A stretch of 64,000 bases of DNA, from positions 64,001 through 128,000 of the IMG/VR virus record IMGVR_UViG_3300025096_000001; one strand, given 5' to 3'. Source of the stretch: a virus. Below are positions 5,395 through 55,563 of this stretch, piece after piece (position 1 is the stretch's first letter; the number at the start of each line of letters is the position of its first letter). The position numbers and the translations under genes are program-made. A model generated the notes under the pieces. The model did no database searches and was not told where the DNA came from. It saw only the letters and a program-made list of their open reading frames with translations.

Positions 5395-5399
5395 TATGT

Positions 5400-9678: not shown

Positions 9679-9679
9679 A

Positions 9680-28622: not shown

Positions 28623-28665
28623 TTGTCGCTCCTCTTTTTTTCTTTTTTAAGTCTTCTATGTTTCA

Positions 28666-29682: not shown

Positions 29683-29895
29683 TTATTGTTTCCTCTTACA
29701 TAAGCGCTCGATTTCTTTAATATTATCTGAAACGGCCGATGTAAATAAAAAAGGAAAAACTGAGTGTATTAAACACTGGATAGACAATACTCCCAAAAGG
29801 AAGCTGATGCTTGTCGCGCCAATTAAATGTTCAAAGTATGTTTCATTCTGAGATTCTATATGTAACTTTAACTTTGAATCATTAAACCAATGCAT
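29683..29895 (-). CDS. Membrane protein, DUF6356-like
   Basis: 70 aa. NETYFEHLIGATSISFLLGVLS followed by IQCLIHSVFPFLFT matches my recollection of the short DUF6356 family (ETYFEH.. then LIHALFPFLF). One or two TM helices. The start overlaps the end of the nuclease gene by 1 nt. Function unknown. Confidence 0.65.
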   Translation of the reverse strand: MHWFNDSKLKLHIESQNETYFEHLIGATSISFLLGVLSIQCLIHSVFPFLFTSAVSDNIKEIERLCKRKQ

Positions 29896-30227: not shown

Positions 30228-30241
30228 TATAATAAATAGGT

Positions 30242-30727: not shown

Positions 30728-30770
30728 AAGGTACCCTCCTTCATGGTCATATATTAATACTTAGTTTTGT

Positions 30771-31364: not shown

Positions 31365-31399
31365 TTTAACTTACCCCCTAAAGTATTTAGTGAGCAAAA

Positions 31400-31468
31400 T
31401 CACGAAGAATAAAAATGTCTCCAATTTTTAAGCAGGAGCTTCCTAAGATATTTAATAATTGTTTTCAT
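31400..31468 (-). CDS. 22-aa ORF consisting of an ENWR-like tag
   Basis: Encodes MKTIIKYLRKLLLKNWRHFY plus two Ser. KLLLKNWRHFY clearly resembles the MKLLLENWRRF tag of neighbouring genes but lacks the [LI]-x-E end and any following domain. It starts 1 nt after the upstream stop. It could be a decayed tagged gene or a free peptide. Confidence 0.4.
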   Translation of the reverse strand: MKTIIKYLRKLLLKNWRHFYSS

Positions 31469-31469
31469 T

Positions 31470-31928
31470 TTAGTTTACCGACGCCGTTGAATAAATAAAC
31501 CCACCAGCCTGCATTCTGGAAGTAACCTCTGCTCCTTGCAAACCGTTATCAGCGGCTCCCTCTAGAGCGTATGAATCTGCTGCTTGCATAGACAACTGTA
31601 TATCACCTGCTACTTCAAATTTAGCAGTGAAAGACTTACCGTCATCAGAAAGTCCCTCTGAAGGAGCCTCTTGCTGCTGACTACTTTCTGCTCCTCCCCC
31701 GAACCAATCTCCTATGCCAGCCTCAGCAGACTGTCCAACGCCTCCTGCGCCGGCCAGAGTGGCTGCCAGCGCCGCTCCAGTCCCAAGTTTCTTCAGCCAC
31801 TTTGGCATCGCTTCTTCTAATTCTTCTTCGGTGAGAATAATATTATTTTCTTTTAGATAAGCTAAAATTTGTTCTCTATGCTGATCTTCGGTTAAATATT
31901 GTCGCCAGTTTTCCATTAATAATTTCAT
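31470..31928 (-). CDS. Tagged internal-protein candidate with Gly/Ala-rich body
   Basis: 152 aa from the ATG after GGAGAAGG. Tag MKLLMENWRQYLTEDQ (L-T-E). Helices follow (HREQILAYLKENNI, EEELEEAMPKWLKKLG), then a Gly/Ala-rich hydrophobic stretch (TGAALAATLAGAGGVG) and a Ser/Gln/Glu-rich, possibly beta C-terminus. LEEAMPKWL could be a second protease-site region. No enzymatic motif. Confidence 0.6.
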   Translation of the reverse strand: MKLLMENWRQYLTEDQHREQILAYLKENNIILTEEELEEAMPKWLKKLGTGAALAATLAGAGGVGQSAEAGIGDWFGGGAESSQQQEAPSEGLSDDGKSFTAKFEVAGDIQLSMQAADSYALEGAADNGLQGAEVTSRMQAGGFIYSTASVN

Positions 31929-34324
31929 GATATAAACCTTCTCCAATTTCCTACAAGTTGTTCATTAATATCGTGAGTCCATCGCCCGGACATGTTATCC
32001 GCTTTAATTTGCGCAAGGGTTTTTCTAAAGTAAACAGTAAGATTATCCTCATCGTCCATTTCGCCCGTGACCAATTCTTTAAAAAGTTCTACACGTTCGG
32101 CGTTGTCGTCTGCGTCGACTTTAAACTGTATTTGCACAACTCTTTCTTCACCACTTCTAGTGACAGTATAATGAGCAATATCTAAATAATATTCAGTTCC
32201 AACTTCCTGTCTTGCGCTGGCTAACAAATTCGTTCTTAGAAGCAGCCTAAACTCGCGAGAATCTAAAAGCCTCTCTAGTATCTGCGGAGACATTTTCCAT
32301 TCTTCTGAGTCGTACTCAAAGCTGTAAGAGGCATATGATTCATAGCTGTTCTCATACTCCCCATCAGTTTCCACATCCCACTCATAAGAATCTATCTCGC
32401 CGTTCTCAATATCCATAGCTAGCTGTATATATTCGCCACCGACCATTTGACCTTCGCGCTTGAAGTATGTTGACAAAATTTCTTTCCATGCGTCATGCCG
32501 GTCATCGATTATAGAGTCAATTTTTTGACAAGCTTCATTGAACTCCTCTGGCATAACATAATAAGATTGTCCGCCTAATTCCGGGTGTTCAAGGTTTACA
32601 CGGCATGTCCAAAAAATAGTATCACCTTGGCGCCCCATATACGCGCCATCATTAAATAAATCACCATATATATCATTAATCGCATCTGCAGAATGTTGCA
32701 CAGACGGCCAAGCACTTGTGGGTAATACCTTCCAATCATCTTTATCCCATTCAATCACAACTTTAGCAGAACCTATGATATATAAACCTTCGCCGCCATC
32801 ATCCTCAACTTGAAAGTTAATTGTTGTAACGGCCGCTCTTCGATTCCATTCATCAATAATTTCTTGACATTGGTTTTCATATGATGTAGCAAGATCCCCG
32901 ATCAAATCGGCGTCTAAATTTTCTTCAGTTTCGGTGTTCTGCTTCATTGAACCTTCAACTTCTACACCCGGTCCAACAAGTTGGCGCATTAATGCTAAAC
33001 GACCTTCTTTGTTAGCAGTATCCTCATAAGAACCCCCAAATATCATAAATTTGCTGAGATCAATCATACCATCTTGTTTTGGCATATTTGCGATGACTTC
33101 TTCTTGATTTGATCTCGCCCAATTAGTAACTTGGTTAGCTAAACCGGGAATATCTGCGCCATATACACGTTTTTCAGGCATTCCAACATCTTGTCCATCA
33201 TCCCAGCGCGCTGGAGGCTCATCACCTTCGTAATATCTGACATGACGGACACGAATTCTAGAAACTGGCTCAATATCACCGCTAAATGAGCGTTTATCGT
33301 CGGCAAATACCTCACCTTCTTGAATTTCCTGCTCTGCACTGTCTATATTGCTCGTATTAGTGGCTGAGAGCAGGTCTTCCGTCATTACCACATAAGCAAC
33401 CGCCCCATGCCCTTGAGCCTCGGCTACAGCGCACTTATAGTACGATTGATAGGCACTTGCACGACTAGCTGGAGAATGACAAGAGGTAATCTCGTCAAAA
33501 TCGCTCATTCTGAGCACATCTATCGGATGTCGAGTGATAATAATGGAAAATTTGTCATTATCGAGGTTATTTATCTCTTTTTTGATGAATCCGGCGTTAT
33601 CTTTCCAATATTGGAAGTATTTTGTGGCTAATTCGGTTAAATTATAGCCAGCAGGTCCTACAACACCCGGATTTACGATGTATAAATATATCTGAGCGAG
33701 AATTCTGTCTAAATTCTCTGCTTCCTTCTCATCAAGCGCAGCGTTACGCATTTTTACTGTAACTTGGTGTGGTTGAGTAACTGGCTTACCAGTTGGGAGT
33801 TTATACCCTGAATCGCCGATACCAGCCAAGTGATCATAGACTTTTTGGTATAATTCGTCCTTTTTTCTGCTTAAATCGGCTATTTTTTTGAATAATTTGC
33901 CAATTTTCATCTGAATCTTCTTAGTTTTCTTCTTTTCGGGTTGTCCTTGGGTCATACCGATCAAAGTATTCATCAAATCATCGGCTGTGGCGGTGTTTCG
34001 CTCAGCAAAGACCATGCCTTTATCCCAATCTACATCATACTCTTGAGATTTGAAGAATTTTGCAAACTTTCCAAGTTCTGTACCCGGATCAATGGTTGGA
34101 AAAGGAATGATTGCACGCATCTTACCACCAAAAAGGTCATTTAGAGGCAGTTCTGCTGGATCAAGGTCATCTAATACGTCCTCAATCACCAACATTTCAT
34201 TATCGGTGATTTCTCGGAGCACTTTTTCATTAAATTCATATAAATCTACTACTTTCGGATCCGAAATATCGATATTTTCTAGTAATTTGACTGCTTTTAG
34301 CAGAATTTGTTCATCATTTAGCAT
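31925..34324 (-). CDS. Large virion-associated hypothetical protein
   Basis: 799 aa. Lysine-rich region near 130 (EKKKTKKIQMKIGKLFKK). A conserved-looking block SIIITRHPIDVLRMSDFD then ITSCHSPASRASAYQSYYKC and GHGAVAYVVM has His, Cys and Arg residues that look catalytic but fit no family I can name. The C-terminal half is acidic and beta-rich. It ends VGNWRRFIS, similar to the ENWR tag but at the C-terminus. Coupled to the tagged gene downstream by ATGA. Confidence 0.65.
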   Translation of the reverse strand: MLNDEQILLKAVKLLENIDISDPKVVDLYEFNEKVLREITDNEMLVIEDVLDDLDPAELPLNDLFGGKMRAIIPFPTIDPGTELGKFAKFFKSQEYDVDWDKGMVFAERNTATADDLMNTLIGMTQGQPEKKKTKKIQMKIGKLFKKIADLSRKKDELYQKVYDHLAGIGDSGYKLPTGKPVTQPHQVTVKMRNAALDEKEAENLDRILAQIYLYIVNPGVVGPAGYNLTELATKYFQYWKDNAGFIKKEINNLDNDKFSIIITRHPIDVLRMSDFDEITSCHSPASRASAYQSYYKCAVAEAQGHGAVAYVVMTEDLLSATNTSNIDSAEQEIQEGEVFADDKRSFSGDIEPVSRIRVRHVRYYEGDEPPARWDDGQDVGMPEKRVYGADIPGLANQVTNWARSNQEEVIANMPKQDGMIDLSKFMIFGGSYEDTANKEGRLALMRQLVGPGVEVEGSMKQNTETEENLDADLIGDLATSYENQCQEIIDEWNRRAAVTTINFQVEDDGGEGLYIIGSAKVVIEWDKDDWKVLPTSAWPSVQHSADAINDIYGDLFNDGAYMGRQGDTIFWTCRVNLEHPELGGQSYYVMPEEFNEACQKIDSIIDDRHDAWKEILSTYFKREGQMVGGEYIQLAMDIENGEIDSYEWDVETDGEYENSYESYASYSFEYDSEEWKMSPQILERLLDSREFRLLLRTNLLASARQEVGTEYYLDIAHYTVTRSGEERVVQIQFKVDADDNAERVELFKELVTGEMDDEDNLTVYFRKTLAQIKADNMSGRWTHDINEQLVGNWRRFIS

Positions 34325-39552: not shown

Positions 39553-39672
39553 TTAAAATGCTCCTAACACAGTGTCTTTAACAGTGATACACACTGGTAC
39601 TATACTTTCTCTATTTTCCCATATACATATAATACCAATAACTATAAGTATATTTTTTATGATTCTCGACAT
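39553..39672 (-). CDS. Tiny membrane protein
   Basis: 39 aa; ATG preceded by AGAGGTAAAATC inside the end of the upstream array gene. RIIKNILIVIGIICIW is a single TM helix; a polar tail follows. Last gene of its operon. Confidence 0.55.
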   Translation of the reverse strand: MSRIIKNILIVIGIICIWENRESIVPVCITVKDTVLGAF

Positions 39673-39827
39673 GATTTTACCTCTAAATGTTTGTAGTGTA
39701 CATATCTCACCTGACCGTTAGGCCAGAGTACACCAATTAGCGCCTTAGCCGTTTCATGGGTCGATACTACCAGTCTCGGCATATGCCAAAGGCCGCGCGC
39801 AGACACCACCAGATCACCGACTTTCAC
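39657..39827 (-). CDS. Array-family protein (GTG start)
   Basis: 56 aa. MKVGDLVVSARGLWHMPRLV, LIGVLWPNGQVRYVHYKHLE: family plan with a V-L-W-P-N-G strand. Its first 14 nt (GTGAAAGTCGGTGA) also encode the SESR end of the upstream protein. It is followed by a 16-nt overlap with the tiny membrane gene. Confidence 0.75.
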   Translation of the reverse strand: MKVGDLVVSARGLWHMPRLVVSTHETAKALIGVLWPNGQVRYVHYKHLEVKSCRES

Positions 39828-40002
39828 TAACTACCTCGCAGCTTTTACTGTTCCAACGAAGCACAACACCTCTCACCATGACATCAACCACAACAGTGCC
39901 ATCGTCATAATTGGTGACTTTTGTGATAATGCCATCTGCATTGCCTCCATAATAGTCTGGATTAAATTCATTAGTCCACTTTACCAGATCACCTACTTGC
40001 AT
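39814..40002 (-). CDS. Array-family protein
   Basis: 62 aa. MQVGDLVKWTNEFNPDYYGG, DGIITKVTNYDDGTVVVDVM, ending CEVVSESR. The tail is encoded by the ribosome site and start of the next gene (14-nt overlap at both ends). Confidence 0.8.
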   Translation of the reverse strand: MQVGDLVKWTNEFNPDYYGGNADGIITKVTNYDDGTVVVDVMVRGVVLRWNSKSCEVVSESR

Positions 40003-40177
40003 TGATCACCATTAAGTTTCGATCACTAATGATCTCGGATTTACCATCGGACCATTGAACCAGCCACCAAGCGACAGGAACACTATCCATTCCAGTGTTC
40101 TTGACAACGATACCGACAAGAGCCGAAAGGTTAAACATATTGCGCCTGTACTTTACCAGATCACCTATCTTTATCAT
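39989..40177 (-). CDS. Array-family protein
   Basis: 62 aa. MIKIGDLVKYRRNMFNLSAL, VGIVVKNTGM, WWLVQWSDGKSEIISD, ending LMVINASR by overlap with the next start. ATGA junction to the upstream 281-aa gene. Confidence 0.8.
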   Translation of the reverse strand: MIKIGDLVKYRRNMFNLSALVGIVVKNTGMDSVPVAWWLVQWSDGKSEIISDRNLMVINASR

Positions 40178-41612: not shown

Positions 41613-42914
41613 TTAGCTGTCGATAGCTATGATGCGCTCGTTGGTTGAGAAGTAGGGGCGCGCGGCGTATGCCTTGGTTGTCATCCACATCCTTTGACAC
41701 TTGCTGGCAATAGGCTTCGGCGCGCAAAGATCGGTCAGGACTATATGACCGTCAAAGCCTTGTGCGTTGACGTACTTGGTTGGAGCATCGAAGCATGTAC
41801 CACCAGTCAGAACGCGCTCGGTTTTCTTGTTTTGGCCTTTCTTCCAAGTATATACCTTATCCTCGGCTACGCGCGTATCAAAGGGGATCACGGTAAACTC
41901 CGCGATTTCGGCCAGTTTGTTCAACTCAGAAAAGAAGGCCGAGAGCATCTGATCATCCACCGATCCAGACTGGTCGATGCTGATAGCGATCTTGGCTTGA
42001 CGGCGTACGCGCTTGCCTGCATGGATGCGAGGGAAACGCTTGTTAAGGCGGCGAGGCGTCGAGGTCTTATCGGCGCGCTGGCTGGTCTTGACGAAGTATC
42101 GGAGTACCTTGCGCCAATCTACCTTAGTAGAGATACGATCAAGGATGTCGGAGCGCATACTATGAGACACCGATCCCCAATTGCGCGTCTTTTCGGCTTC
42201 TTCGGCGGCTTGCTTGACAGCTTCTTTCAATCGCTCTTTAGCAATTTCTTGAGTGGTTCCATCTACTTCACCAAATTCTTCATGTGAATCAAAAGAATCA
42301 GCCCCATCAAACGGGTCGCCGTTGCCTTGACCTTGGCCTTGACCTTGGCCTTGGCCGGGTTCACCCTCGCCATCCTGTTGGCCATCAGTACCATCACCGT
42401 CGCCTTGCTGGTCTTCCATATCCTTCAATGCTGCCAAGTACCACTCGTAAGACTTGCCAGCGGGCAAGTGAGCGAAGGGGCCTTCACATGGAAAAACACC
42501 CTGCATCGGTTGACCATCATACATGATCGGGCCGGGATCTGAGGCACTTGGTAATTTTCCCTTCATCTCAGGTAGGCCATTGATAGCAAGATCCATCGCG
42601 ATGTTATCAATACGTTGAAGCCCATCAATCGGCTTGCGACCAGTCACATGCTCAAGGATGATATGATAAAACTCGTGCATTAGAACGCCCAATTTGTGTT
42701 CATCGCTCAACTGGCCCATGAAGTCAGGGTTATAGAGCAACTCAAATTGGGCTGTGTGCGGGTTTACGCGCACACCAGCCGTAGGCAGCGATGTGCATGC
42801 AGTCTTGTCGATGCGACGAGACAGGGCGGCAAAGAACGGCTCACGCATAAGCAAGCGTGCTGTGTGCATATTCAAGTTGAATGGGGCGGCTGGTTTGTTG
42901 GCTTCGTCGGTCAT
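41613..42914 (-). CDS. VWA-like metallopeptidase-domain protein (DUF2201-type)
   Basis: 433 aa. The N-terminal domain has a zinc-peptidase-like motif LMHEFYHIILEHVTGR (HExxH, near residue 79). A Gly/Gln/Asp low-complexity linker (GQGQGQGQGQGNGD, from a CAAGGC/T-type repeat) lies near 190-200. The C-terminal VWA-like domain has MIDAS IDQSGSV near 315 and HIVLTDLCAP. Such proteins pair with MoxR ATPases, as here (43246-44328), to form a chaperone or metal-insertion machine. DNA here looks more GC-rich than in neighbouring operons, hinting at acquisition. Confidence 0.88.
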   Translation of the reverse strand: MTDEANKPAAPFNLNMHTARLLMREPFFAALSRRIDKTACTSLPTAGVRVNPHTAQFELLYNPDFMGQLSDEHKLGVLMHEFYHIILEHVTGRKPIDGLQRIDNIAMDLAINGLPEMKGKLPSASDPGPIMYDGQPMQGVFPCEGPFAHLPAGKSYEWYLAALKDMEDQQGDGDGTDGQQDGEGEPGQGQGQGQGQGNGDPFDGADSFDSHEEFGEVDGTTQEIAKERLKEAVKQAAEEAEKTRNWGSVSHSMRSDILDRISTKVDWRKVLRYFVKTSQRADKTSTPRRLNKRFPRIHAGKRVRRQAKIAISIDQSGSVDDQMLSAFFSELNKLAEIAEFTVIPFDTRVAEDKVYTWKKGQNKKTERVLTGGTCFDAPTKYVNAQGFDGHIVLTDLCAPKPIASKCQRMWMTTKAYAARPYFSTNERIIAIDS

Positions 42915-42995: not shown

Positions 42996-43246
42996 GTGTC
43001 TTTTACGTCATACTCTGCGGCTATCTCAAATTCTGTAAGGTTTAACTCAGCACCAGTAGCAGGGTTGACAACGCGATAACGAAGCCGTGTTCCCTTCTGA
43101 GAGCCGTATCGAGGTATGCCGGTGTCAGACACCTCTAAGACCACGTGCGGCTTCTCAGAGCCTTCGGCGCGGCTCCTAAAGATCAAGTCTCCCCTTTGGA
43201 GATCCCTGACCCTTGGGAGTGCCATTCTGCTGGCGATTCGGCCCAT
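42992..43246 (-). CDS. SH3/KOW-like array-family protein
   Basis: 84 aa, ATG overlapping the MoxR stop (TAATG) with GGAGGTAACCAGTA upstream. RDLQRGDLIFRSRAEGSEKP, HVVLEVSDTGIPRYG, RYRVVNPATG. Placed between MoxR and a promoter, so it belongs to the MoxR operon. Confidence 0.65.
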   Translation of the reverse strand: MGRIASRMALPRVRDLQRGDLIFRSRAEGSEKPHVVLEVSDTGIPRYGSQKGTRLRYRVVNPATGAELNLTEFEIAAEYDVKDT

Positions 43247-44328
43247 TACTGGTTACCTCCGAGAATTTCAACAAGGTGTTCTGACACTGATTGACCGCTC
43301 GCAGTCGTCGCCTTGTGGAGCGCGATGGTGTTATCAATCTGATCGGAGTCTCCGATCACAGTCCATAGCTTCATAGCTACCTCGGAAGGCAAGGTTACAA
43401 AGTATTCCGCGACGTTGGTGATCTGGCTCTCGGTCAGAATTTCAGCGAATACCTTGCTCGCTTCCATCTTTTCGATCATCGCAGCATGGTCGTTGATACC
43501 CCAATTTGAGGTCTTTTCAAGTTGCCCATTGTCTACAAGGTCTTCGATGGTTACTTGCCATTCGTACTTTTCAACAAAGTCGCGCAAAGCTACCGCACCC
43601 TCAAAGCCGACAAACGACGTTGCAAGGTTGAATAGAAGATCGCGATCACCATCTTCACCAAAGACACCAGCGGGAGTCACGGTATCATTAAACCGCTTCC
43701 AGCTACGGCGGGATGGGTAAACCTTGTTAGGCTCAAAGTCGCCAACATGCTCAAGGTGAGCGCGGTTCTGGTTGATGAAATCCCACAAGATCCCATCAAC
43801 GTTATCCTGCGCCCACTTCAACCAATCTTCGGTGGAAGGCTCCACATCGAAGACTGTCCAGCGATCCAATTCGGCAGGGTCCATTTCACCCACCTGATAT
43901 TGAGCGCCATGCTCACCACCATTGACAGCGGCGATGATCAGAGTCTCAGGGTGAAGGTGCCAGCCGTTGATCTTGCGGCTGTCAGTCAACTCAAAGAGGC
44001 CCTGACGGACTTCCTGAGTCGCGCGGTCCACTTCATCGAGGAATAGCACCACTGGTTGCTCACAAGCGGTCACAAGCCAATCAGGGGCGTTCCAAGTGGT
44101 AGCCTTGCGGCCATTAATTTCGGTGTCAGCCGTATCAGGCAGACCAAGAAGATCACCCTCTGTCATCTGTGAGGCGCGGCGTTCTACCACGGGCAGATCA
44201 CGGACCTTAGCAGTCTGATAGACTACTTCGGATTTACCGACACCGTGACGACCACGAATAAGCACGGGCAATTTGGCGTTGAGGATATGGGGGACTACGG
44301 ACGTGAAGGTTGCGAAATCGACGGACAT
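43246..44328 (-). CDS. MoxR-type AAA+ ATPase
   Basis: 360 aa. Walker A IRGRHGVGKSEVVY near residue 27, Walker B PVVLFLDEVDRATQEVRQGL near 94, sensor-1 ETLIIAAVNGG, arginine-finger region SRRSWKRFND. The MoxR subgroup is indicated by the helix-2-like insert and the adjacent VWA partner gene downstream. Likely acts with that partner, possibly remodelling a host or viral complex. Confidence 0.9.
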   Translation of the reverse strand: MSVDFATFTSVVPHILNAKLPVLIRGRHGVGKSEVVYQTAKVRDLPVVERRASQMTEGDLLGLPDTADTEINGRKATTWNAPDWLVTACEQPVVLFLDEVDRATQEVRQGLFELTDSRKINGWHLHPETLIIAAVNGGEHGAQYQVGEMDPAELDRWTVFDVEPSTEDWLKWAQDNVDGILWDFINQNRAHLEHVGDFEPNKVYPSRRSWKRFNDTVTPAGVFGEDGDRDLLFNLATSFVGFEGAVALRDFVEKYEWQVTIEDLVDNGQLEKTSNWGINDHAAMIEKMEASKVFAEILTESQITNVAEYFVTLPSEVAMKLWTVIGDSDQIDNTIALHKATTASGQSVSEHLVEILGGNQ

Positions 44329-45353: not shown

Positions 45354-45408
45354 ATTATCTCATATGCGAGAGCGAAAGTCAACAACTAAGTTGTCAAGCA
45401 AATGTCAA
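45354..45408 (-). promoter_or_regulatory. Three-box early-type promoter
   Basis: TTGACA (45403-45408)-5-TTGACA-9-TTGACT-17-GATAAT (45354-45359). Drives the zinc-knuckle gene. Confidence 0.85.
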
Positions 45409-45557
45409 GAAGCATTTACTAACTGCATGTATTCAATGGCGACTTTGTTGCCATTGTGAAGTTTAACGAACCTGCCGGTTTCTCTACTGCCCCACATTTC
45501 CACGATGATGCTGTGATTTCTATGGTATCTGTCATATACCAGATCACCGACTTTCAT
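45405..45557 (-). CDS. Array-family protein
   Basis: 50 aa. MKVGDLVYDRYHRNHSIIVE, GRFVKLHNGNKVAIEYMQLV, ending NAS because its TGA lies in box 1 of the next promoter. Start overlaps the upstream stop (ATGA). Confidence 0.75.
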   Translation of the reverse strand: MKVGDLVYDRYHRNHSIIVEMWGSRETGRFVKLHNGNKVAIEYMQLVNAS

Positions 45558-45748
45558 ACTTCCACCTTTATTAGATCATATTCCCACATTCGATCGCTAA
45601 TGCCGCCACAAGTCCACCGCACCCTGAATGCATCGTTGTCGGCTGTGCTTGTCTTGCCGCTGACCTCTGCCAAGATAAGACCAAGCAACGGGCGTTCTGG
45701 CTCCACGTCACGCAAATATACTGCTTTTACCAAATCACCGACTTTCAT
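45554..45748 (-). CDS. Array-family protein
   Basis: 64 aa. MKVGDLVKAVYLRDVEPERP, LLGLILAEVSGK, FRVRWTCGGISDRMWEYDLI: complete family plan. ATGA junctions on both sides. Confidence 0.8.
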   Translation of the reverse strand: MKVGDLVKAVYLRDVEPERPLLGLILAEVSGKTSTADNDAFRVRWTCGGISDRMWEYDLIKVEV

Positions 45749-45954
45749 GCTTCTACCTCGGTCATATACTTTAACAGACCCCGATCAATGATCGTCGACG
45801 CAGGAGCGCCAACCTTCAAGATCCTGTGATTCTCAACGATCACACCGTCATCGCGATGAATAAAATCCTCACCAAGATATATTGCCAGCGTTCCATCTAA
45901 GCCGCTGCGCGCCAAGCCCCAACCTTCAAATTTATACATCTTACCTATTTGCAT
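45745..45954 (-). CDS. Array-family protein, divergent
   Basis: 69 aa from the ATG in the array junction. MQIGKMYKFEGWGLARSGLD, GTLAIYLGEDF, NHRILKVG. GDLV is replaced by GKMY but start, overlap and length fit. Confidence 0.65.
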   Translation of the reverse strand: MQIGKMYKFEGWGLARSGLDGTLAIYLGEDFIHRDDGVIVENHRILKVGAPASTIIDRGLLKYMTEVEA

Positions 45955-46105
45955 TGATGACCTCCACAAACTGAATCATGTGACTATCGAGAACACAGAC
46001 CTTTCCAGCTTCGGTAAAGCTGATCGTGTGATCGGCCGCTTCATCAATCTCGATAATGATGCCTTGACCATAATAATCGTCATAAATCAGATCACCGACC
46101 TGCAT
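45941..46105 (-). CDS. Array-family protein
   Basis: 54 aa. MQVGDLIYDDYYGQGIIIEI, ISFTEAGKVCVLDSHMIQFV, tail EVINANR from the 14-nt overlap with the next start. Confidence 0.8.
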   Translation of the reverse strand: MQVGDLIYDDYYGQGIIIEIDEAADHTISFTEAGKVCVLDSHMIQFVEVINANR

Positions 46106-46259
46106 TGATAACCTCCAACAATAGACCAGACTCGATTTTAGGTCTGTCTTCATCTGTCCACATCACCCACACATCGGCAGGCTTTGCCCATCGCTTTTTG
46201 CAAGCGCCCATAACAAGACCAACTGATCCCCGAAACCTCACCAGATCACCGACTTTCAT
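46092..46259 (-). CDS. Array-family protein
   Basis: 55 aa. MKVGDLVRFRGSVGLVMGAC, DVWVMWTDEDRPKI, tail LLEVINAGR. 14-nt overlaps at both ends. Confidence 0.82.
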   Translation of the reverse strand: MKVGDLVRFRGSVGLVMGACKKRWAKPADVWVMWTDEDRPKIESGLLLEVINAGR

Positions 46260-46389
46260 TATCTGCCTCCATAGAATCGAGAAAGGCGTTCCAATGTTTC
46301 CAAGGGAATACCGCAAGGGCAGCGACACCGAGAATAGGCAAAAGCCAAATTCCGTTGTCGAGTAGAATGATTTGCCAGTCGTTGAGCAT
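46246..46389 (-). CDS. Small membrane protein
   Basis: 47 aa behind GGAAAGGTGTAC. TM helix GIWLLPILGVAALAVF. Its C-terminal DNESR is produced by the 14-nt overlap with the next array gene, although the protein itself is unrelated to the family. Confidence 0.6.
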   Translation of the reverse strand: MLNDWQIILLDNGIWLLPILGVAALAVFPWKHWNAFLDSMEADNESR

Positions 46390-46414
46390 GTACACCTTTC
46401 CTTGATTGTTCCTT

Positions 46415-46469
46415 ATTATCTCATAAGCGAGAGAGAAAGTCAACAGGTTTCTTGTCAAGTAAATGTCAA
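46415..46469 (-). promoter_or_regulatory. Three-box early-type promoter
   Basis: TTGACA (46464-46469)-5-TTGACA-9-TTGACT-17-GATAAT (46415-46420). Box 1 contains the upstream TGA. Confidence 0.85.
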
Positions 46470-46666
46470 GGGATTCTAATATCTTTAACGAACATGAGTC
46501 CGCTACTCTTTTCGGTTTGTGCGTTGGGGGTGTTCGTCCACAAAACTTTAACGTCGGTGTTGCCGGTATACTTTCCAACCTCAACGATCAGACCAACATT
46601 GACAGATAGACCTTTACGCCATCGTGCAGCTTGAAAGGCATATGTCACCAGATCACCCGGCTTCAT
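46466..46666 (-). CDS. Array-family protein
   Basis: 66 aa. MKPGDLVTYAFQAARWRKGL, SVNVGLIVEVGKYTG, VKVLWTNTPNA, LMFVKDIRIP. ATGA junction to the upstream gene; last gene of its operon. Confidence 0.8.
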   Translation of the reverse strand: MKPGDLVTYAFQAARWRKGLSVNVGLIVEVGKYTGNTDVKVLWTNTPNAQTEKSSGLMFVKDIRIP

Positions 46667-49194: not shown

Positions 49195-49249
49195 ATTATC
49201 TCACAGGCGACAGGAAATGTCAATAAGAATGTTGTAAAGGAAATGTCAA
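49195..49249 (-). promoter_or_regulatory. Three-box early-type promoter
   Basis: TTGACA (49244-49249)-5-TTTACA-9-TTGACA-17-GATAAT (49195-49200). Box 1 carries the stop of the last array gene upstream. Confidence 0.85.
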
Positions 49250-49428
49250 GAAGAATTAATAATCGGAAGTCTACGGCCGACGCGGATAGTTTCAGCACCC
49301 ACCAAAATATCCCAGCTACGATCATAGCGCCAATCACCATCGGGGTTACCATCGGGTACGGCGCGCTTGTGTTCTTTAACGATGGTCGCAACAGTGGCGC
49401 GCCACTTAACCAAATCACCTACTTTCAC
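49246..49428 (-). CDS. Array-family protein (GTG start)
   Basis: 60 aa. MKVGDLVKWRATVATIVKEH then WDILVGAETIRVGRRLPIIN. Ends INSS with TGA in promoter box 1 rather than in the array junction, as expected for the last gene of an operon. Confidence 0.8.
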   Translation of the reverse strand: MKVGDLVKWRATVATIVKEHKRAVPDGNPDGDWRYDRSWDILVGAETIRVGRRLPIINSS

Positions 49429-49573
49429 TAACCACCTCCAATGATAGACAATTAACATCTTGAACAGTCCCACACTGCCATCGAACAGTAGCATACTGAT
49501 ACCCAATGTTAAGGATGATCCCCGTCATACCGCGCGGATCGCGTTTCGTCTTTATTAGATCACCTACTTGCAT
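49415..49573 (-). CDS. Array-family protein
   Basis: 52 aa. MQVGDLIKTKRDPRGMTGII, YATVRWQCGTVQDV, LSLEVVSESR. 14-nt overlap at both ends. Confidence 0.82.
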   Translation of the reverse strand: MQVGDLIKTKRDPRGMTGIILNIGYQYATVRWQCGTVQDVNCLSLEVVSESR

Positions 49574-49718
49574 TGATCACCTTCAATAAAGAGCGTACAC
49601 ACCACCTGACACCTCCGTCTGTCCAAGCGACAAACAACTTGTCATGGCCTTTCCTGACCACTACGCCAAGCATACCAGATTCGGAGAACCTGTGCCGCAC
49701 CAGATCACCGACTTGCAT
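49560..49718 (-). CDS. Array-family protein
   Basis: 52 aa. MQVGDLVRHRFSESGMLGVV, KLFVAWTDGGVRWCVRSLLK, tail VINASR. The long open frame upstream of its ATG is only the shadow of the neighbour. Confidence 0.82.
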   Translation of the reverse strand: MQVGDLVRHRFSESGMLGVVVRKGHDKLFVAWTDGGVRWCVRSLLKVINASR

Positions 49719-49887
49719 TGACAACCTCCATATCTGCCTCTCGGCAGAACAACAAACCCCCTGCACCAAGAACTTGCCAATACGCGCCAAGCCCATCGTC
49801 CGGAGCATGATCATGCTTCCGCACAATGATACCCACTTGTTGCTTTTTGTCCCACGAAATCCATTTGATCAAATCACCGACTTGCAC
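49705..49887 (-). CDS. Array-family protein (GTG start)
   Basis: 60 aa. MQVGDLIKWISWDKKQQVGI, YWQVLGAGGLLFCREADMEV, tail VNASR. 14-nt overlaps. Confidence 0.82.
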   Translation of the reverse strand: MQVGDLIKWISWDKKQQVGIIVRKHDHAPDDGLGAYWQVLGAGGLLFCREADMEVVNASR

Positions 49888-50032
49888 TGATCAACTCCAA
49901 ATATAGTGTGTGCATTGCAATCACGCGGCCGCGCAATAGAATGTTCCAATAATCGTGATGCGCTCTTGAAACAACAGTACACAACACGGGGTCTGCGCCA
50001 AACGTACAATACATCAAATCACCGACTTGCAC
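49874..50032 (-). CDS. Array-family protein (GTG start)
   Basis: 52 aa. MQVGDLMYCTFGADPVLCTV, YWNILLRGRVIAMHTLYLEL, tail ISASR. More divergent core but identical junctions. Confidence 0.78.
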   Translation of the reverse strand: MQVGDLMYCTFGADPVLCTVVSRAHHDYWNILLRGRVIAMHTLYLELISASR

Positions 50033-50186
50033 TTAATACCTCCAAGTGTTGCCGTTGAAAGCAACACATAGCGCCATTGTGGGACAGGATGACGCCCCAC
50101 AAACCGGATACCTTGAAGAACTCAACAACGATGCCCGTAGCACCATCGCTCACCGTCCGACATTTAACTAAATCACCAACTTTCAT
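50019..50186 (-). CDS. Array-family protein, leaderless start
   Basis: 55 aa. MKVGDLVKCRTVSDGATGIV, LWGVILSHNGAMCCFQRQHL, tail EVLSASR. The ATG lies 6 nt after the -10 box (TATATT-ATATAT-ATG) with no ribosome site, so the transcript should begin at or next to the A of ATG. Confidence 0.82.
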   Translation of the reverse strand: MKVGDLVKCRTVSDGATGIVVEFFKVSGLWGVILSHNGAMCCFQRQHLEVLSASR

Positions 50187-50192
50187 ATATAT

Positions 50193-50247
50193 AATATAAC
50201 ACAAGGGAGTGGGGTTTGCAAGGATAATTCTGTCAAGAGGTTGTCAA
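50193..50247 (-). promoter_or_regulatory. Three-box early-type promoter, leaderless
   Basis: TTGACA (50242-50247)-5-TTGACA-9-TTGCAA-17-TATATT (50193-50198). The only copy placed directly against a start codon. Confidence 0.82.
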
Positions 50248-50426
50248 GAGATCCAACGATTTCTCGCCGCACCATTCTTTATTGCCGGGACCGAAAAGCG
50301 ATAGACCCTGCGTACGCAGGCCTGCGTTGTCCACAAAATACGCACCATATCACAGTCGTCGCGTATAGAAAGTATAACGCCGATCTGCTCTGTAAGAAAA
50401 TGTTTAACTAAGTCACCGACTTTCAT
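50244..50426 (-). CDS. Array-family protein
   Basis: 60 aa. MKVGDLVKHFLTEQIGVILS, MVRILWTTQACVRRVYRFSV; ends RWIS with the stop in promoter box 1. Confidence 0.82.
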   Translation of the reverse strand: MKVGDLVKHFLTEQIGVILSIRDDCDMVRILWTTQACVRRVYRFSVPAIKNGAARNRWIS

Positions 50427-50601
50427 TGATTACCTCCATGTCCTTAGCTTCAACCCACCCAGTATCGCTGCGGTGGGGCCAGAACACTTGAGCAAGTGGT
50501 TGCCCCTCGTAGGCACCCGCGCGCAGTTTGATAACGATACCCATGCGTGCGCGATGCCCGCCAATCGTGTATTTGCTTTTAACAATGCTACCGACTTTCA
50601 C
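50413..50601 (-). CDS. Array-family protein (GTG start)
   Basis: 62 aa. MKVGSIVKSKYTIGGHRARM, GIVIKLRAGAYEGQ, AQVFWPHRSDTGWVEAKDME, tail VINESR. Confidence 0.82.
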   Translation of the reverse strand: MKVGSIVKSKYTIGGHRARMGIVIKLRAGAYEGQPLAQVFWPHRSDTGWVEAKDMEVINESR

Positions 50602-50779
50602 TTACTACCTCCAGCCAACTCTCAGGTTCCCAGTCCACCTTGCCTGAACCTCCAAGCCATTTTATACCTATCTGAATAGAACTACGGTGATAGTCCCTAT
50701 CAATAACAATGCCGACTATTCCCGTATCATATTGAGAACCCTTCATTTTCACCAGATCACCTATTTTAATGCCCAGCAC
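50588..50779 (-). CDS. Array-family protein (GTG start)
   Basis: 63 aa. MLGIKIGDLVKMKGSQYDTG, IVGIVIDRDY, GIKWLGGSGKVDWEPESWLE, tail VVSESR. Three extra residues precede the IGDLV. Confidence 0.8.
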   Translation of the reverse strand: MLGIKIGDLVKMKGSQYDTGIVGIVIDRDYHRSSIQIGIKWLGGSGKVDWEPESWLEVVSESR

Positions 50780-50975
50780 TAATCACCGTCGCGACTTGTC
50801 TAAGATGAACCAAGCGAAACAAATTTGGGTTTTTCGCTTCAAGGTGTGATGGACTCCAGTTGTGTATAAAAACTTTGGCAGTGAACGATGAATCATCAAT
50901 AAAATCCTGTCCAATGTTTATAATCGTCCCAACTCGGCCGGTCCTATTAAATTTTATAACGTCGCCAGTTTGCAT
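50766..50975 (-). CDS. Array-family protein
   Basis: 69 aa. MQTGDVIKFNRTGRVGTIIN, SFTAKVFIHNWSPSHLEAKN, tail VATVISAGH. The upstream junction here is not overlapping (3-nt gap). Confidence 0.78.
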   Translation of the reverse strand: MQTGDVIKFNRTGRVGTIINIGQDFIDDSSFTAKVFIHNWSPSHLEAKNPNLFRLVHLRQVATVISAGH

Positions 50976-50978
50976 TGA

Positions 50979-51161
50979 TTACCTCCGCCTCATCTGTTCC
51001 CGTTTTTCTAGCTTACCTTTGATCAGCACCTCCACATCGAGAGGGCCTTGTTCATCTTCGCTGAACACCCGTGTAATAATTCCAATACGATCAGGATAGG
51101 TCGGGCCGAGCCTAACAAGATCGCCAATTTTCATTTTGTTTCTAAGTCTAACTATTTTCAC
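50979..51161 (-). CDS. Array-family protein with N-terminal extension
   Basis: 60 aa from GTG behind GGAGGTAATCA. MKIVRLRNKMKIGDLVRLGP: the array start signal (GTGAAAAT..) is followed nine codons later by a second MKIGDLV, as if two starts had recombined. DRIGIITRVFSEDEQGPLDV, LIKGKLEKREQMRRR. Confidence 0.72.
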   Translation of the reverse strand: MKIVRLRNKMKIGDLVRLGPTYPDRIGIITRVFSEDEQGPLDVEVLIKGKLEKREQMRRR

Positions 51162-51225
51162 TGATTACCTCCAAGTAATACGTTGAATGATTGCAACAGG
51201 TTCCGTCACTCCAGAATACTAACAC
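51148..51225 (-). pseudogene. Truncated array gene remnant
   Basis: 25 codons from a GTG behind AGGAGAAAACTAATGA: MLVFWSDGTCCNHSTYYLEV then ISENS. This is the last two strands and tail of a family member (compare V-x-W-x-D-G..LEVIS) with the N-terminal GDLV half missing. First reading frame after its promoter. Confidence 0.6.
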
Positions 51226-51253: not shown

Positions 51254-51308
51254 AATATACCACGGCGGCGCGCAGAAGTCAACATATATCTTGTCAAGAG
51301 AATGTCAA
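51254..51308 (-). promoter_or_regulatory. Three-box early-type promoter
   Basis: TTGACA (51303-51308)-5-TTGACA-9-TTGACT-17-TATATT (51254-51259). The second box, not the first, supplies the TGA of the upstream membrane-protein gene. Confidence 0.85.
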
Positions 51309-51416: not shown

Positions 51417-51660
51417 ACTCAACCTTCACTGTTTTAACATAAAAAACAACTTTATCGCCGGGTTTTACATGTTTCAACTGCCTCTTGTTGAGTTTGATCC
51501 ACATGCCTGAATCCGGCGCATTTGTGACTTCAACCGCTACCATTCGATCAAAGTACATCTGATCGTTTAGTACCGTGCCAGTCATTCTTGCTCTGTTTGT
51601 AGAACAACCTCCGATAAGCACCAGCAGGCATAGTGTTATAAACTTGCTTATAGCTAACAT
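51403..51660 (-). CDS. Small lipoprotein
   Basis: 85 aa from ATG behind CAGGAGAAAAGAAA. Signal SKFITLCLLVLIGGC with lipobox IGGC, mature part begins STNRARMTG. The mature domain has KPGDKVVFYVKTVKVEY, a GDKV barrel-like pattern. Phage lipoproteins of this size often block superinfection; here that is only a suggestion. Confidence 0.72.
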   Translation of the reverse strand: MLAISKFITLCLLVLIGGCSTNRARMTGTVLNDQMYFDRMVAVEVTNAPDSGMWIKLNKRQLKHVKPGDKVVFYVKTVKVEYETK

Positions 51661-51959
51661 TTTCTTTTCTCCTGAATATGGCGACATTTGCGCCGAAAAC
51701 CGTAACCGGGGCAAGAGCAAGAATAAATGCCCTTAGAGAGTTTAACGGTATAAAAATTTCCTTTGCTGCCCTTTACACTCCAAGAGTTTTCACCGACAAC
51801 AGGGACCACCTCACGCGGCTTATAGACCATATATGCAGACAGCTCACTGAACGCGGTGTCTTTCGGCACCTCCACCCACACCGAACCAGCAATTGCATAT
51901 CGAACGCCCTTGTGATTTGTAAATAATGCCGGTGGAATTGAAACTTCAATAGGGTTCAT
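51654..51959 (-). CDS. SWIM-type zinc-finger protein
   Basis: 101 aa. FYTVKLSKGIYSCSCPGYGF then RRKCRHIQ gives CxC..CxH with the hydrophobic spacing of SWIM domains. The N-terminus (VSIPPALFTNHKGVRYAIAG) is a separate beta segment. Nucleic-acid or protein interaction likely. Start overlaps the stop of a 20-aa ORF (ATGA). Confidence 0.78.
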   Translation of the reverse strand: MNPIEVSIPPALFTNHKGVRYAIAGSVWVEVPKDTAFSELSAYMVYKPREVVPVVGENSWSVKGSKGNFYTVKLSKGIYSCSCPGYGFRRKCRHIQEKRKC

Positions 51960-52155: not shown

Positions 52156-52210
52156 AATATATCATCGTTTTGATCATAAGTCAAGCACTCTCTTGTAAAG
52201 AAGATGTCAA
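52156..52210 (-). promoter_or_regulatory. Three-box early-type promoter
   Basis: TTGACA (52205-52210)-5-TTTACA-9-TTGACT-17-TATATT (52156-52161). The upstream gene reads through boxes 1 and 2 and stops in box 3 (TTGACT). Confidence 0.85.
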
Positions 52211-52393
52211 GTGAACAACATCATAGTTTTCTTCATCAACAAGACACTCAAAGCCTTCGCACCAGACTACCCACATTTCAGGTAAAGTGGCTCTTGCTGT
52301 AGGCTCAAACCGATGCAAAACAATCGCAGGGTTTGAATAATCATTATCAGAATAACCTCCGGGTTTGAAGGATATTAGATCACCTACTTTCAC
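52181..52393 (-). CDS. Array-family protein (GTG start)
   Basis: 70 aa. MKVGDLISFKPGGYSDNDYS, NPAIVLHRFE, MWVVWCEGFECLVDEENYDV. The last ten residues (HLTSSLQESA) are encoded by the promoter boxes. Confidence 0.8.
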   Translation of the reverse strand: MKVGDLISFKPGGYSDNDYSNPAIVLHRFEPTARATLPEMWVVWCEGFECLVDEENYDVVHLTSSLQESA

Positions 52394-52583
52394 TTACCAC
52401 CTCAAGTTCATCTTCATACATGATAGAGCCACCATCTTCTGATAGCCACACGGGGTTTCTCCACATAACTTTAATACTGGGTGGGTCTTGGGGCTGCCCC
52501 CACATAACAACGCCAGTTTCCATAACGATGCCGATGCCGTGTTCAGGCTCGTTCACATTTAATACCAAATCACCTACTTTCAT
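52380..52583 (-). CDS. Array-family protein
   Basis: 67 aa. MKVGDLVLNVNEPEHGIGIV, IKVMWRNPVWLSEDGGSIMY, tail ELEVVSESR. ATGA junction to the Smr-like gene upstream. Confidence 0.82.
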   Translation of the reverse strand: MKVGDLVLNVNEPEHGIGIVMETGVVMWGQPQDPPSIKVMWRNPVWLSEDGGSIMYEDELEVVSESR

Positions 52584-52786
52584 TCGATCACCACTCTACC
52601 GGAATTATTATAGGTATCGCGCACTGATAGTCCTAAAGGCTTAACGGCTTGTGCCACCAATCTTTTCATATCATCGGATTTACCAGTGATGACAATAAAC
52701 GGTGGGTTGTGTTCTAAGCATGCACTGTGTAAAATACGCTCAACATTTTCGTGTTTAACTCCGTGCAGATCAATTATTACGTGCAT
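52580..52786 (-). CDS. Smr-domain-like mini-protein
   Basis: 68 aa. VIIDLHGVKHENVERIL (the [LI]DLHG motif) and PPFIVITGKSDDMKRLV (TGK) match the Smr nuclease/nicking domain at its minimal length. It may bind or nick nucleic acid. Embedded between two array genes. Confidence 0.72.
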   Translation of the reverse strand: MHVIIDLHGVKHENVERILHSACLEHNPPFIVITGKSDDMKRLVAQAVKPLGLSVRDTYNNSGRVVIE

Positions 52787-52964
52787 TAACCACCACTAAA
52801 GCATCCGTACCGATCCATGCAATCTCGCCATCCTTAAATAAAACTTCGGCTGATTTTGTTTTGTGTCCGGTTCTAGAAAGTTTAACGACGATCCCATAAT
52901 CTAGTTGAGATTCAATATCATCACTATCCACATTCTCAAACTGTACTAAATCACCTACTTTCAT
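52770..52964 (-). CDS. Array-family protein
   Basis: 64 aa. MKVGDLVQFENVDSDDIESQ, LDYGIVVKLSRTGHKTKSAE, VLFKDGEIAWIG, ends VVVNARNN. Confidence 0.8.
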   Translation of the reverse strand: MKVGDLVQFENVDSDDIESQLDYGIVVKLSRTGHKTKSAEVLFKDGEIAWIGTDALVVVNARNN

Positions 52965-54340: not shown

Positions 54341-54609
54341 CGCAGCGTTGATGCTTTCTCAACAAAAATATCATCGGCAAAAGTCTTTGTAAACCGCAGA
54401 CTTGCAGGATCAATGCCTTCGTGTTGTGCTTCGGATGCCGACCGCGCAAACTTCCGCAACATTTTAATATACTCGATCTTACCAAAGGTAACCTGCGCGC
54501 CGAAATGTGATGCGTCCGGTACATACTTGGTATAAAAATGCTTTATGATCTTAAAAGTATCTTTAATACCATCAAGATCCTCTGTATCAATCACTAATGT
54601 TAATTTCAC
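54337..54609 (-). CDS. Hypothetical protein (GTG start)
   Basis: 90 aa. KLTLVIDTEDLDGIKDTFKI, FGKIEYIKMLRKFARSASEA: alternating beta and basic helix segments. Overlaps the array gene upstream by 23 nt. Confidence 0.6.
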   Translation of the reverse strand: MKLTLVIDTEDLDGIKDTFKIIKHFYTKYVPDASHFGAQVTFGKIEYIKMLRKFARSASEAQHEGIDPASLRFTKTFADDIFVEKASTLR

Positions 54610-54805
54610 TTATCACCTCTATAGAATCTTTACGCGGTGCAATGATATGTACTTTACCGCGCTCAATACACCACATTTTCCAGACACAATTTTCTCCCAT
54701 GTCCGGTGTTTCAAAAATAACGCCATGAAAAGGCTTTGTCCATTCCACATCATTCAAGTCATTTCTTTCACGGTAGCGAACCCTGACCAAATCACCTACT
54801 TTCAT
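54587..54805 (-). CDS. Array-family protein
   Basis: 72 aa. MKVGDLVRVRYRERNDLNDV, FHGVIFETPDMG, WKMWCIERGKVHIIAPRKDS, ends IEVISEINISD. 14-nt overlap upstream. Confidence 0.8.
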   Translation of the reverse strand: MKVGDLVRVRYRERNDLNDVEWTKPFHGVIFETPDMGENCVWKMWCIERGKVHIIAPRKDSIEVISEINISD

Positions 54806-54986
54806 TAAGGACCGCCAACCATTTGGCGGGTTCCCACGATACCTCGCCGGGTGTGTCTGTAAGCCACAGCACGCGCACACGTTTATGACTTGTTCCTCGA
54901 CGGATGCAGTCGGGGTTGGTTCGCGTAATAACACCTATCGCGTTACCCGGCGCGCCGGGCATGTGTATTAAATCACCTACTTTCAT
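54792..54986 (-). CDS. Array-family protein
   Basis: 64 aa. MKVGDLIHMPGAPGNAIGVI, RVRVLWLTDTPGEVSWEPAK, ends WLAVLNESR. 14-nt overlaps at both ends. Confidence 0.82.
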   Translation of the reverse strand: MKVGDLIHMPGAPGNAIGVITRTNPDCIRRGTSHKRVRVLWLTDTPGEVSWEPAKWLAVLNESR

Positions 54987-55098
54987 TTTTCTTCTGCCTC
55001 TCAAGGTTTTTAATTTGGTTACGAATGTGCTTAATAGTCCGTTTGTATGCGGCTATGCTTTCATCAATTAGTTTAGTTTCTTCTTTATTCAGACTCAT
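54973..55098 (-). CDS. Small coiled-coil protein
   Basis: 41 aa. MSLNKEETKLIDESIAAYKR then IKHIRNQIKNLERQKK, a short coiled coil. Its terminal NESR comes from the 14-nt overlap with the next array gene; likewise its own start lies in the end of an array gene. Confidence 0.6.
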   Translation of the reverse strand: MSLNKEETKLIDESIAAYKRTIKHIRNQIKNLERQKKNESR

Positions 55099-55291
55099 CG
55101 ATCATCCTCAAGTCTACTTGTGGTATGCCGCGCAATTTTCCATCAAAAAGAATTCGCGCAAACGGTTCGTAAGGAACTGCTCCCCAATTTACTTTTTTAC
55201 CCCTTTCGTCGGTGCGCCAACATTTACTTTCGTAAACCTCTGTCACCAAACAAGCGGTATCGTGCCACATTACTAAATCACCTGCTTTCAT
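55085..55291 (-). CDS. Array-family protein
   Basis: 68 aa. MKAGDLVMWHDTACLVTEVY, VPYEPFARILFDGKLRGIPQ, ends LRMIDESE. ATGA junction upstream. Confidence 0.78.
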   Translation of the reverse strand: MKAGDLVMWHDTACLVTEVYESKCWRTDERGKKVNWGAVPYEPFARILFDGKLRGIPQVDLRMIDESE

Positions 55292-55563
55292 TTAACAAAC
55301 CTCAAATCGTTACGCAAAAAATAATCATTCCATGCTGTGTGGGCGCTATTGTGACGGTTCGGTGGACCTTCACCACACCACCTAACAACATATTTCATTT
55401 TCTCATTCTTGGAACCGTACGGTTGCCAGTATGGATTTTCCTTAACCTCGACTATAACTCCAACAGTTATTTTATCACCCTTGTCGGCGTGACGCTTATA
55501 TTTCCACATCGGACCCATCCTCAAACCATACGCTGACAGCGTTACCAAATCACCAGCCTTCAT
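55288..55563 (-). CDS. Array-family protein, long
   Basis: 91 aa. MKAGDLVTLSAYGLRMGPMW, KITVGVIVEVKENPYWQPYG, MKYVVRWCGEGPPNRHN. Two longer loops than other members. ATGA junctions both sides. Confidence 0.78.
   Translation of the reverse strand: MKAGDLVTLSAYGLRMGPMWKYKRHADKGDKITVGVIVEVKENPYWQPYGSKNEKMKYVVRWCGEGPPNRHNSAHTAWNDYFLRNDLRFVK

Follow-up and report, generated by a model that had tools for sequence, protein, structure and literature searches.

The 64,000-nt stretch of viral DNA analysed here (positions 64,001 to 128,000 of IMG/VR record IMGVR_UViG_3300025096_000001, hereafter the window) contains on its minus strand a series of small, related genes, each unit of which is treated below as a cassette. 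The block at 49.2-51.2 kb includes a 60-aa cassette gene (49246..49428) that is the last of its operon, followed in the direction of increasing coordinates by genes of 52 aa with the tail LEVVSESR (49415..49573), 52 aa (49560..49718), 60 aa with the tail MEVVNASR (49705..49887), 52 aa with the tail LELISASR (49874..50032) and 55 aa with the tail LEVLSASR (50019..50186), the latter having relatives at 33-91% identity in 15 other loci. A 60-aa gene (50244..50426), also the last of its operon, is followed by genes of 62 aa (50413..50601), 63 aa with the tail LEVVSESR (50588..50779) and 69 aa (50766..50975), the last of which is not overlapped by its upstream gene and uses the GGC glycine codon. 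The gene at 50979..51161 encodes 51 aa from the ATG at 51134 or 60 aa from the GTG of a degenerate joint at 51161, and adjoins a 25-codon cassette remnant (51148..51225) ending LEVISENS, also with a degenerate joint. Operon-boundary elements lie at 49233..49249 (TTGACATTTCCTTTACA) and 50231..50247 (TTGACAACCTCTTGACA) on the minus strand. The first box of each contains the stop of a cassette gene, that of 49246-49428 (a TGA within the TTGACA) and that of 50244-50426, respectively.

The remaining cassettes, all on the minus strand, are distributed among four further blocks between other genes and promoter-like elements. The block at 39657..40177 comprises three genes (39657-39827, 39814-40002 and 39989-40177) joined by two 14-nt joints. 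The block at 45405..46666 contains cassette genes at 45405-45557, 45554-45748, 45941-46105, 46092-46259 and 46466-46666, a MQIGKMYK gene at 45745-45954, and an unrelated 47-aa membrane protein (46246-46389) ending EADNESR in the joint. The block at 52181..52964 contains cassettes at 52181-52393 and 52380-52583, which share a 14-nt joint, and at 52770-52964. The block at 54587..55563 contains cassettes at 54587-54805 and 54792-54986, an unrelated 41-aa ORF (54973-55098) ending KKNESR in the joint, and KAGDLV genes at 55085-55291 and 55288-55563 that overlap by 4 nt. A gene for a MoxR-like AAA ATPase (43246..44328, minus strand) served as a neutral anchor to fetch 80 related loci.

Seventeen overlaps of exactly 14 nt were found between 39.8 and 55.0 kb, the same number as claimed in an earlier note made from the sequence alone. 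Sixteen were identified by script and one at 50779/50766, where the stop is TAA. The starts are 54986, 54805, 52393, 51161, 50779, 50601, 50426, 50032, 49887, 49718, 49573, 49428, 46259, 46105, 45954, 40002 and 39827. The start string given in the note (ATG/GTG A/C AAGTCGGTGATCTG) and the tails LEVINASR and EVVSESR were confirmed, although the array that it described as consecutive is broken into the blocks above, two of the 17 junctions follow unrelated genes (46259 after the small membrane protein and 54986 after the 41-aa ORF), the joint at 51161 is degenerate, and some neighbours instead use a 4-nt ATGA overlap (45557/45554 and 55291/55288). The joint extends over about 33 nt (-13..+20 around the start) and comprises an extended Shine-Dalgarno site (GGAGGTNATC), the start codon and the first residues MKVGDLV of the downstream protein, while in the upstream frame it encodes the last beta strand and the tail (L)EV(I/V)(N/S)(A/E)SR followed by the stop. 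On the minus strand the joints are TTGGAGGTGGTTAGTGAAAGTAGGTGATTTGGT at 49409..49441 (start 49428), TTGAAGGTGATCAATGCAAGTAGGTGATCTAAT at 49554..49586 (start 49573), ATGGAGGTTGTCAATGCAAGTCGGTGATCTGGT at 49699..49731 (start 49718), TTGGAGTTGATCAGTGCAAGTCGGTGATTTGAT at 49868..49900 (start 49887) and ATGGAGGTAATCAATGAAAGTCGGTGACTTAGT at 50407..50439 (start 50426), with further joints at 50013..50045 (start 50032) and 50582..50614 (start 50601, where the stop is TAG).

In order to determine whether the joint is local to this genome, IMG/VR contigs were searched with an exact 28-mer form, which occurred in 91 stretches; all 123 matches are a stop/start junction of this kind. In the 80 contigs chosen only by the neighbouring MoxR gene, 295 of 395 close family pairs overlap by exactly 14 nt, far beyond chance. 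The joint carries 41.5 bits over -14..+20 in 767 overlapped starts, and the Shine-Dalgarno part is strongly conserved only where the genes overlap. The glycine codon is GGT in 767/767 overlapped starts, as required to give the TGA, against 123/199 in starts with neither overlap, and a third-base T in codon 3 (Trp in the upstream frame) falls from 21% to 2%. The upstream C-terminal Arg is likewise constrained. The overlap does not follow automatically from the KVGD start, since about 31% of family starts examined lack the 14-nt overlap, and those use other glycine codons and lack the strong Shine-Dalgarno block. All 18 checked contigs with the joint also carry the MoxR gene, two of them at only 40-41% identity, so the joint belongs to one broad group and the idea that it moves between unrelated phages is not supported. 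DNA and protein searches of 50,697 annotated phage records gave no convincing family member, the few joint hits being chance, and megablast of 40-60 kb hit only a tRNA-Leu. An exact scan of 84,980 cellular species found no joint.

The cassette bodies are under purifying selection, with a median dN/dS of 0.20 and 81 of 84 clusters below 0.5. Two window proteins, 49560..49718 and 50413..50601, were modelled as five-strand SH3-like barrels with pLDDT of 95.4 and 89.2, respectively, in agreement with the SH3/KOW-like fold proposed in the note. The nearest PDB neighbours are KOW, Tudor and PWWP domains with query-normalised TM up to 0.85, although no Foldseek E-value is below 0.001. By predicted fold and weak profile similarity, the closest known domains are KOW, Tudor and SH3-like small barrels (NusG and SPT5 KOW, PHF19 and PAPI Tudor, UvrD Tudor). 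A profile built from the family finds NusG at E 0.0057 as well as SPT5 KOW domains, whereas only one of 90 scanned members matches the Pfam KOW model (PF00467), at E 0.005, no Pfam family matches more than one of the 90, and Pfam and PHROGs gave no consistent family. In contrast to these domains, the cassette proteins are free-standing, with 50-70 aa, a conserved KVGDLV start and an EVISESR tail.

Comparison of related loci (denoted by L numbers) revealed gain and loss of whole units. The near-identical genomes L013 and L015, with flanks 99.5% and 100% identical, differ by the presence or absence of one 176-bp unit, with the crossover inside the identical ATGAAAGTCGGTGATTTGGT. L066 and L056 differ by nine units, and L112 against L148 by runs of 4, 3, 3, 3 and 1 extra units. 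Fourteen insertions have unit length, against a mean of 0.05 when lengths are perturbed. The order of cassettes is also shuffled: the next cassette is conserved in 17% of pairs whose cassettes are at least 80% identical (82 pairs, all loci) and in 32% in the anchored loci (25 pairs), against 68% for control genes. Unrelated genes appear to be captured upstream of the joint. A SWIM-type zinc-finger gene ends NESR/NASR or a close variant in 13 contigs where a cassette follows by the 14-nt joint and ends otherwise elsewhere, including this window; in one exception (L123) a joint is followed by a gene that the family profile did not call. The basic VKHKG protein fits this pattern too. The closest relative of a cassette lies in another contig for 554 cassettes and in the same contig for only 19, results indicating that growth is mainly by exchange between phages and not by recent local duplication, a point that goes beyond the note. 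Profile searches of 14 large records found no tyrosine (PF00589) or serine (PF00239) recombinase in any, with positive controls, whereas a RecA/UvsX-like protein (PF00154) was present in all 14.

The results are best explained, with a probability of about 0.8, by a cassette system of a large group of uncultured double-stranded DNA phages of about 185-205 kb, in which each unit, from start codon to start codon, encodes one small predicted SH3/KOW/Tudor-like barrel protein. Because the joint has nearly the same DNA sequence everywhere, recombination between any two joints, within a genome or between co-infecting phages, would remove, add or swap whole cassettes and always restore a stop, a ribosome site and a start. 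The proposal of the note that such joints would let genes be gained, lost or shuffled is supported. The recombination mechanism itself, homologous or annealing-type and carried out by phage enzymes such as the RecA/UvsX-like protein, is inferred; the events are deduced from assembled metagenome contigs without recombination experiments or read-level polymorphism. The exact identical run between two joints of one locus is usually short (median 9 nt, 17% at least 15 nt), less than favoured by efficient RecA-type recombination, so annealing or illegitimate events filtered by selection may do part of the work. Furthermore, gene-content breakpoints fall at gene borders in phages generally because other breakpoints are removed by selection, and joints within a genome are only slightly more alike than joints of different genomes (23.86 against 23.45 of 32), giving little sign of homogenisation. 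It is also inferred that the selective benefit is a rapidly changing repertoire of small binding proteins, perhaps for host takeover or counter-defence.

The overlap with its embedded Shine-Dalgarno site could alternatively be kept only because it couples translation of neighbouring small genes, with turnover by ordinary illegitimate recombination and selection for intact genes. The restriction of the strong Shine-Dalgarno conservation to overlapped starts and the constrained C-terminal Arg are in accord with this view, as is the embedding of stops in promoter-like elements, which shows that these phages are compact in general. However, coupling does not predict that unit-length insertions begin and end in the same joint with shared joint sequence at both borders, nor the much lower neighbour conservation than in control genes of the same loci. 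Coupling may still operate alongside the cassette model but is unlikely as the whole explanation. Somewhat less likely still is an ancient tandem duplication with vertical inheritance and differences arising mainly through loss. Old tandem duplications did occur, since adjacent cassettes are somewhat more alike than non-adjacent ones (5.6% against 1.3% at 35% identity or more), yet the closest relatives lie overwhelmingly in other contigs, and cassettes at least 80% identical mostly have different neighbours, which loss alone does not readily give.

The anatomy of the cassettes and their precise borders at a conserved short sequence recall a site-specific system in which a dedicated recombinase recognises the joint. 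This possibility is remote given the absence of tyrosine and serine recombinases from the 14 large records and given that the conserved bases are explained by coding and ribosome binding, although a new type of recombinase is not excluded. An assembly artefact is equally doubtful. The joints are near-repeats that could lead assemblers to collapse or mis-join arrays, and all relatives come from metagenome assemblies, but only 4% of joint pairs in a locus share an exact run of 20 nt or more, the same cassettes and clean borders recur across many samples, and the cassette bodies are all different, so that collapse would not delete them.

Exchange of modules by homologous recombination at short conserved sequences between genes has been proposed for lambdoid phages (Susskind and Botstein 1978; Clark et al. 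2001, HK620; as cited in PMC3029335). Those sequences apparently join unrelated genes, whereas here one joint is shared by a paralogous family of predicted barrel genes, is dual-coding, and is associated with visible unit-length gain and loss. In T4-like phages, the PeSL promoter-early stem-loop cassettes (Arbiol et al. 2010; Comeau et al. 2014; cited in PMC4503421) are repeated short regulatory motifs that mediate shuffling of genes between related large phages. PeSLs are transcription signals (early promoter plus stem-loop), whereas the joint is a translation signal inside coding sequence, and cassette-to-cassette borders are coding overlaps with no intergenic room. The double-TTGACA operon element is closer to a PeSL but often contains the stop codon of the upstream gene. 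Integrons (attC sites, IntI integrase) also present arrays of small exchangeable genes with a repeated boundary element, but here no integrase was found in the 14 large records, the boundary is explained by coding and ribosome binding, and the arrays lie in phages in short operons. None of the papers searched contains KVGDLV and literature searches for such arrays returned nothing relevant; the translational, paralogue-array form appears undescribed. It is about as likely as not that the array represents a previously undescribed class of gene-cassette system, a translational counterpart of the integron, in which general recombination shuffles intact, immediately expressed genes without a dedicated recombinase and unrelated genes can be captured upstream. 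Such a system would give a whole group of phages a fast-changing repertoire of small binding proteins.

How phages exchange genes without breaking them has long been argued, either by recombination at short boundary sequences or by random illegitimate joining filtered by selection, and boundary sequences could not be identified at most borders. In the group of phages described here the boundary sequence is plain, sits at hundreds of junctions, and is associated with clean gains and losses of single genes between nearly identical genomes. The joint also shows an unusual solution to compactness, in which one short DNA word is at once a protein tail, a ribosome site and a protein start, and it exposes a family of more than a thousand distinct small proteins (1,203 clusters at 80% identity) predicted to be barrels.

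On the minus strand of the window (bases 64001-128000 of a 195,459-base virus record), 17 start codons between 39.8 and 55.0 kb were found to lie exactly 14 nt inside the end of the previous reading frame, so that the count of 17 junctions in the earlier note is exact. In most cases both genes belong to one family of 50-70 codon genes that begin MKVGDLV or MQVGDLV and end EV(I/V)(N/S)(A/E)SR. The string GGAGGTNATCA(A/G)TG(A/C)AAGTCGGTGA is Glu-Val-Ile-Asn/Ser-Ala/Glu-Ser-Arg-stop in the upstream frame, an extended Shine-Dalgarno site as RNA, and Met-Lys/Gln-Val-Gly-Asp when read from its ATG or GTG. Blocks of such genes alternate with unrelated genes and with promoter-like elements. The element TTGACATTNNNTTGACA, a second dual-purpose joint at operon ends, was identified at 17 sites on the minus strand of the window between 38856 and 59433, for example at 49233-49249, 50231-50247 and 51292-51308, against 1.15 expected. 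In related loci fetched by a neighboring MoxR-like ATPase gene the element occurs 284 times on the coding strand and 4 times on the other, and in 138 of the 284 the TGA stop of an upstream ORF of 60 aa or more sits inside the first TTGACA, the next commonest position accounting for 16. The element resembles a pair of -35 promoter boxes, and at 49.2 kb a further TTGACA is followed at 17 nt by GATAAT.

In order to determine whether the joint is restricted to this genome, IMG/VR contigs were searched with an exact 28-base form, which was found in 91 stretches (78 non-redundant loci counting the window and its flanks). All 123 matches are a family start whose upstream reading frame ends on the TGA. 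Since loci L011-L101 were chosen because they hold the joint, 80 contigs were also fetched with the neighboring MoxR-like ATPase only, and rates were taken from this MoxR-anchored set wherever possible. These contigs contain 777 family members in 79 loci, and of 395 adjacent pairs closer than 60 bp, 295 overlap by exactly 14 nt and 38 by 4 nt. Sixteen large records hold 9-31 members each, and the listed places mostly cluster in one region and on one strand. No convincing family member was found among annotated phages, and no joint was found in 84,980 cellular genomes. All 18 further contigs checked that carry the joint also carry the MoxR gene, at 40-81% identity, indicating one broad group of uncultured phages. 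The MoxR-like ATPase is next to a putative metallopeptidase/VWA-like protein (window 41613-42914 and 43246-44328), conserved at the DNA level across the group beside the cassette region; the best PHROG of the latter protein, phrog_1314, is labeled HNH endonuclease, which looks doubtful. Elsewhere in the window, at about 788-12216, the ORF starts alone revealed a run of sugar-nucleotide, epimerase and glycosyltransferase-like genes on the minus strand, suggesting surface or DNA glycosylation functions. Several different proteins encoded at 27508-31946 share the N-terminal start MKxLxENWRxxLxE, a conserved leader on otherwise different proteins that is perhaps a capsid-targeting or processing signal.

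The joint is under dual constraint. The region -14..+20 carries 41.5 bits in 767 overlapped starts, against 30.3 in 199 family starts without either overlap, and the Shine-Dalgarno block is strong only in the overlapped class. The glycine codon, which supplies the TGA, is GGT in 767 of 767 overlapped starts and in 123 of 199 others. The third base of codon 3 avoids T (2% against 21%), which would put Trp in place of the last Arg of the upstream protein. Thus, both frames are seen by selection.

Comparison of closely related loci, which relied on metagenome assemblies without reads or isolates, revealed gain and loss at the joints. Loci L013 and L015 (also fetched as L118 and L165) are 99.5-100% identical on both sides, yet L013 has one extra 176-bp unit. 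The left border of the unit reads CATTTGGAGGTTATCAATGAAAGTCGGTGATTTGGTGAGA and the right border TAGTTAAGGTGGTGGTATGAAAGTCGGTGATTTGGTAACA, while the empty site in L015 is exactly left-of-joint plus right-of-joint, CATTTGGAGGTTATCAATGAAAGTCGGTGATTTGGTAACA. Among other pairs of loci, L066 and L056 differ by nine units, L124 and L139 by one, and L032 and L064 by two, whereas L112 has runs of 4, 3, 3, 3 and 1 extra units relative to L148, most within flanks 90-95% identical. Of 102 clean insertions found between loci, 14 have a length that equals a start-to-start distance from a joint at the breakpoint to within 3 nt, 12 of them exactly; when lengths were perturbed by 10-60 nt the mean was 0.05 and the maximum 1. 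A few of the 14 are the same event seen through duplicate loci. Of the 33 other insertions that contain family starts, several look like unit events with a miscalled start and others are larger mixed insertions; since start codons were called by rule, a few unit borders are uncertain by some codons. Within the window, a 25-codon cassette remnant with a degenerate joint (GTGAAAATAGTTAG) is followed by a cassette that now seems to use an ATG further in (51148-51225 and 50979-51161), a decaying unit.

The order of the cassettes is also shuffled. For cassettes at least 80% identical in amino acids in different contigs, the next cassette is orthologous in 17% of 82 pairs over all loci and in 32% of 25 pairs in the MoxR-anchored loci, while control genes of 90 aa or more in the same anchored loci keep their next gene in 68% of 353 pairs. 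The closest relative of a cassette lies in another contig in 554 cases and in the same contig in 19, results indicating that the arrays are not made mainly by recent local duplication, although adjacent cassettes are slightly more alike than distant ones.

Unrelated genes also seem to be captured upstream of the joint. A SWIM-type zinc-finger protein of unknown role (CSCPGYGFRRKCRH; window 51654-51959), with orthologues in 24 other loci, is a frequent upstream neighbor of cassettes in related phages. In 13 contigs it is followed by a cassette through the 14-nt joint, and there it ends in NESR, NASR or a close variant. In this window and in the contigs where no such joint follows, the protein ends in other residues, for example ..HIQEKRKC in the window. 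One exception, locus L123, ends DASR at a joint whose downstream gene was not in the profile set. The basic VKHKG protein shows the same, ending ..RTNESR at the 14-nt joint and ..KHKGAE at the 4-nt overlap. In the anchored loci 85 of 360 overlapped starts follow an ORF outside the family, although some of these may be chance open frames or uncalled family members.

No tyrosine recombinase or resolvase family was detected in 14 large records, while a RecA/UvsX-like protein is in all 14. Exact identity between two joints of one locus is at least 15 nt in 17% of pairs, against 0.02% at a control position. The simplest account, in the absence of experiments, is general recombination by phage enzymes between near-identical joints, with selection for intact genes. 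To our knowledge, neither the boundary sequences of lambdoid phages nor the PeSL cassettes of T4-like phages are dual-coding or tied to one paralogous family. The arrays are therefore regarded here as a variant that differs from those systems in these two respects, with an even chance that specialists would call it a new class.

The bodies of the cassette proteins are under purifying selection, with a median dN/dS of 0.20 where computable (302 pairs) and 81 of 84 clusters below 0.5. Two proteins of the window were modeled as small beta barrels with pLDDT values of 95.4 and 89.2. A profile of 90 members finds NusG, SPT5 and ribosomal KOW domains at weak but consistent scores, and the predicted folds match KOW, Tudor and PWWP domains, although the best Foldseek E-values of about 0.006-0.1 are not proof of homology for 50-60 residues. 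Since barrels of this type generally bind peptides, RNA, DNA or other proteins, it is inferred, without direct evidence of function, that small adaptor or inhibitor roles in host takeover or counter-defence are the likeliest for this family.
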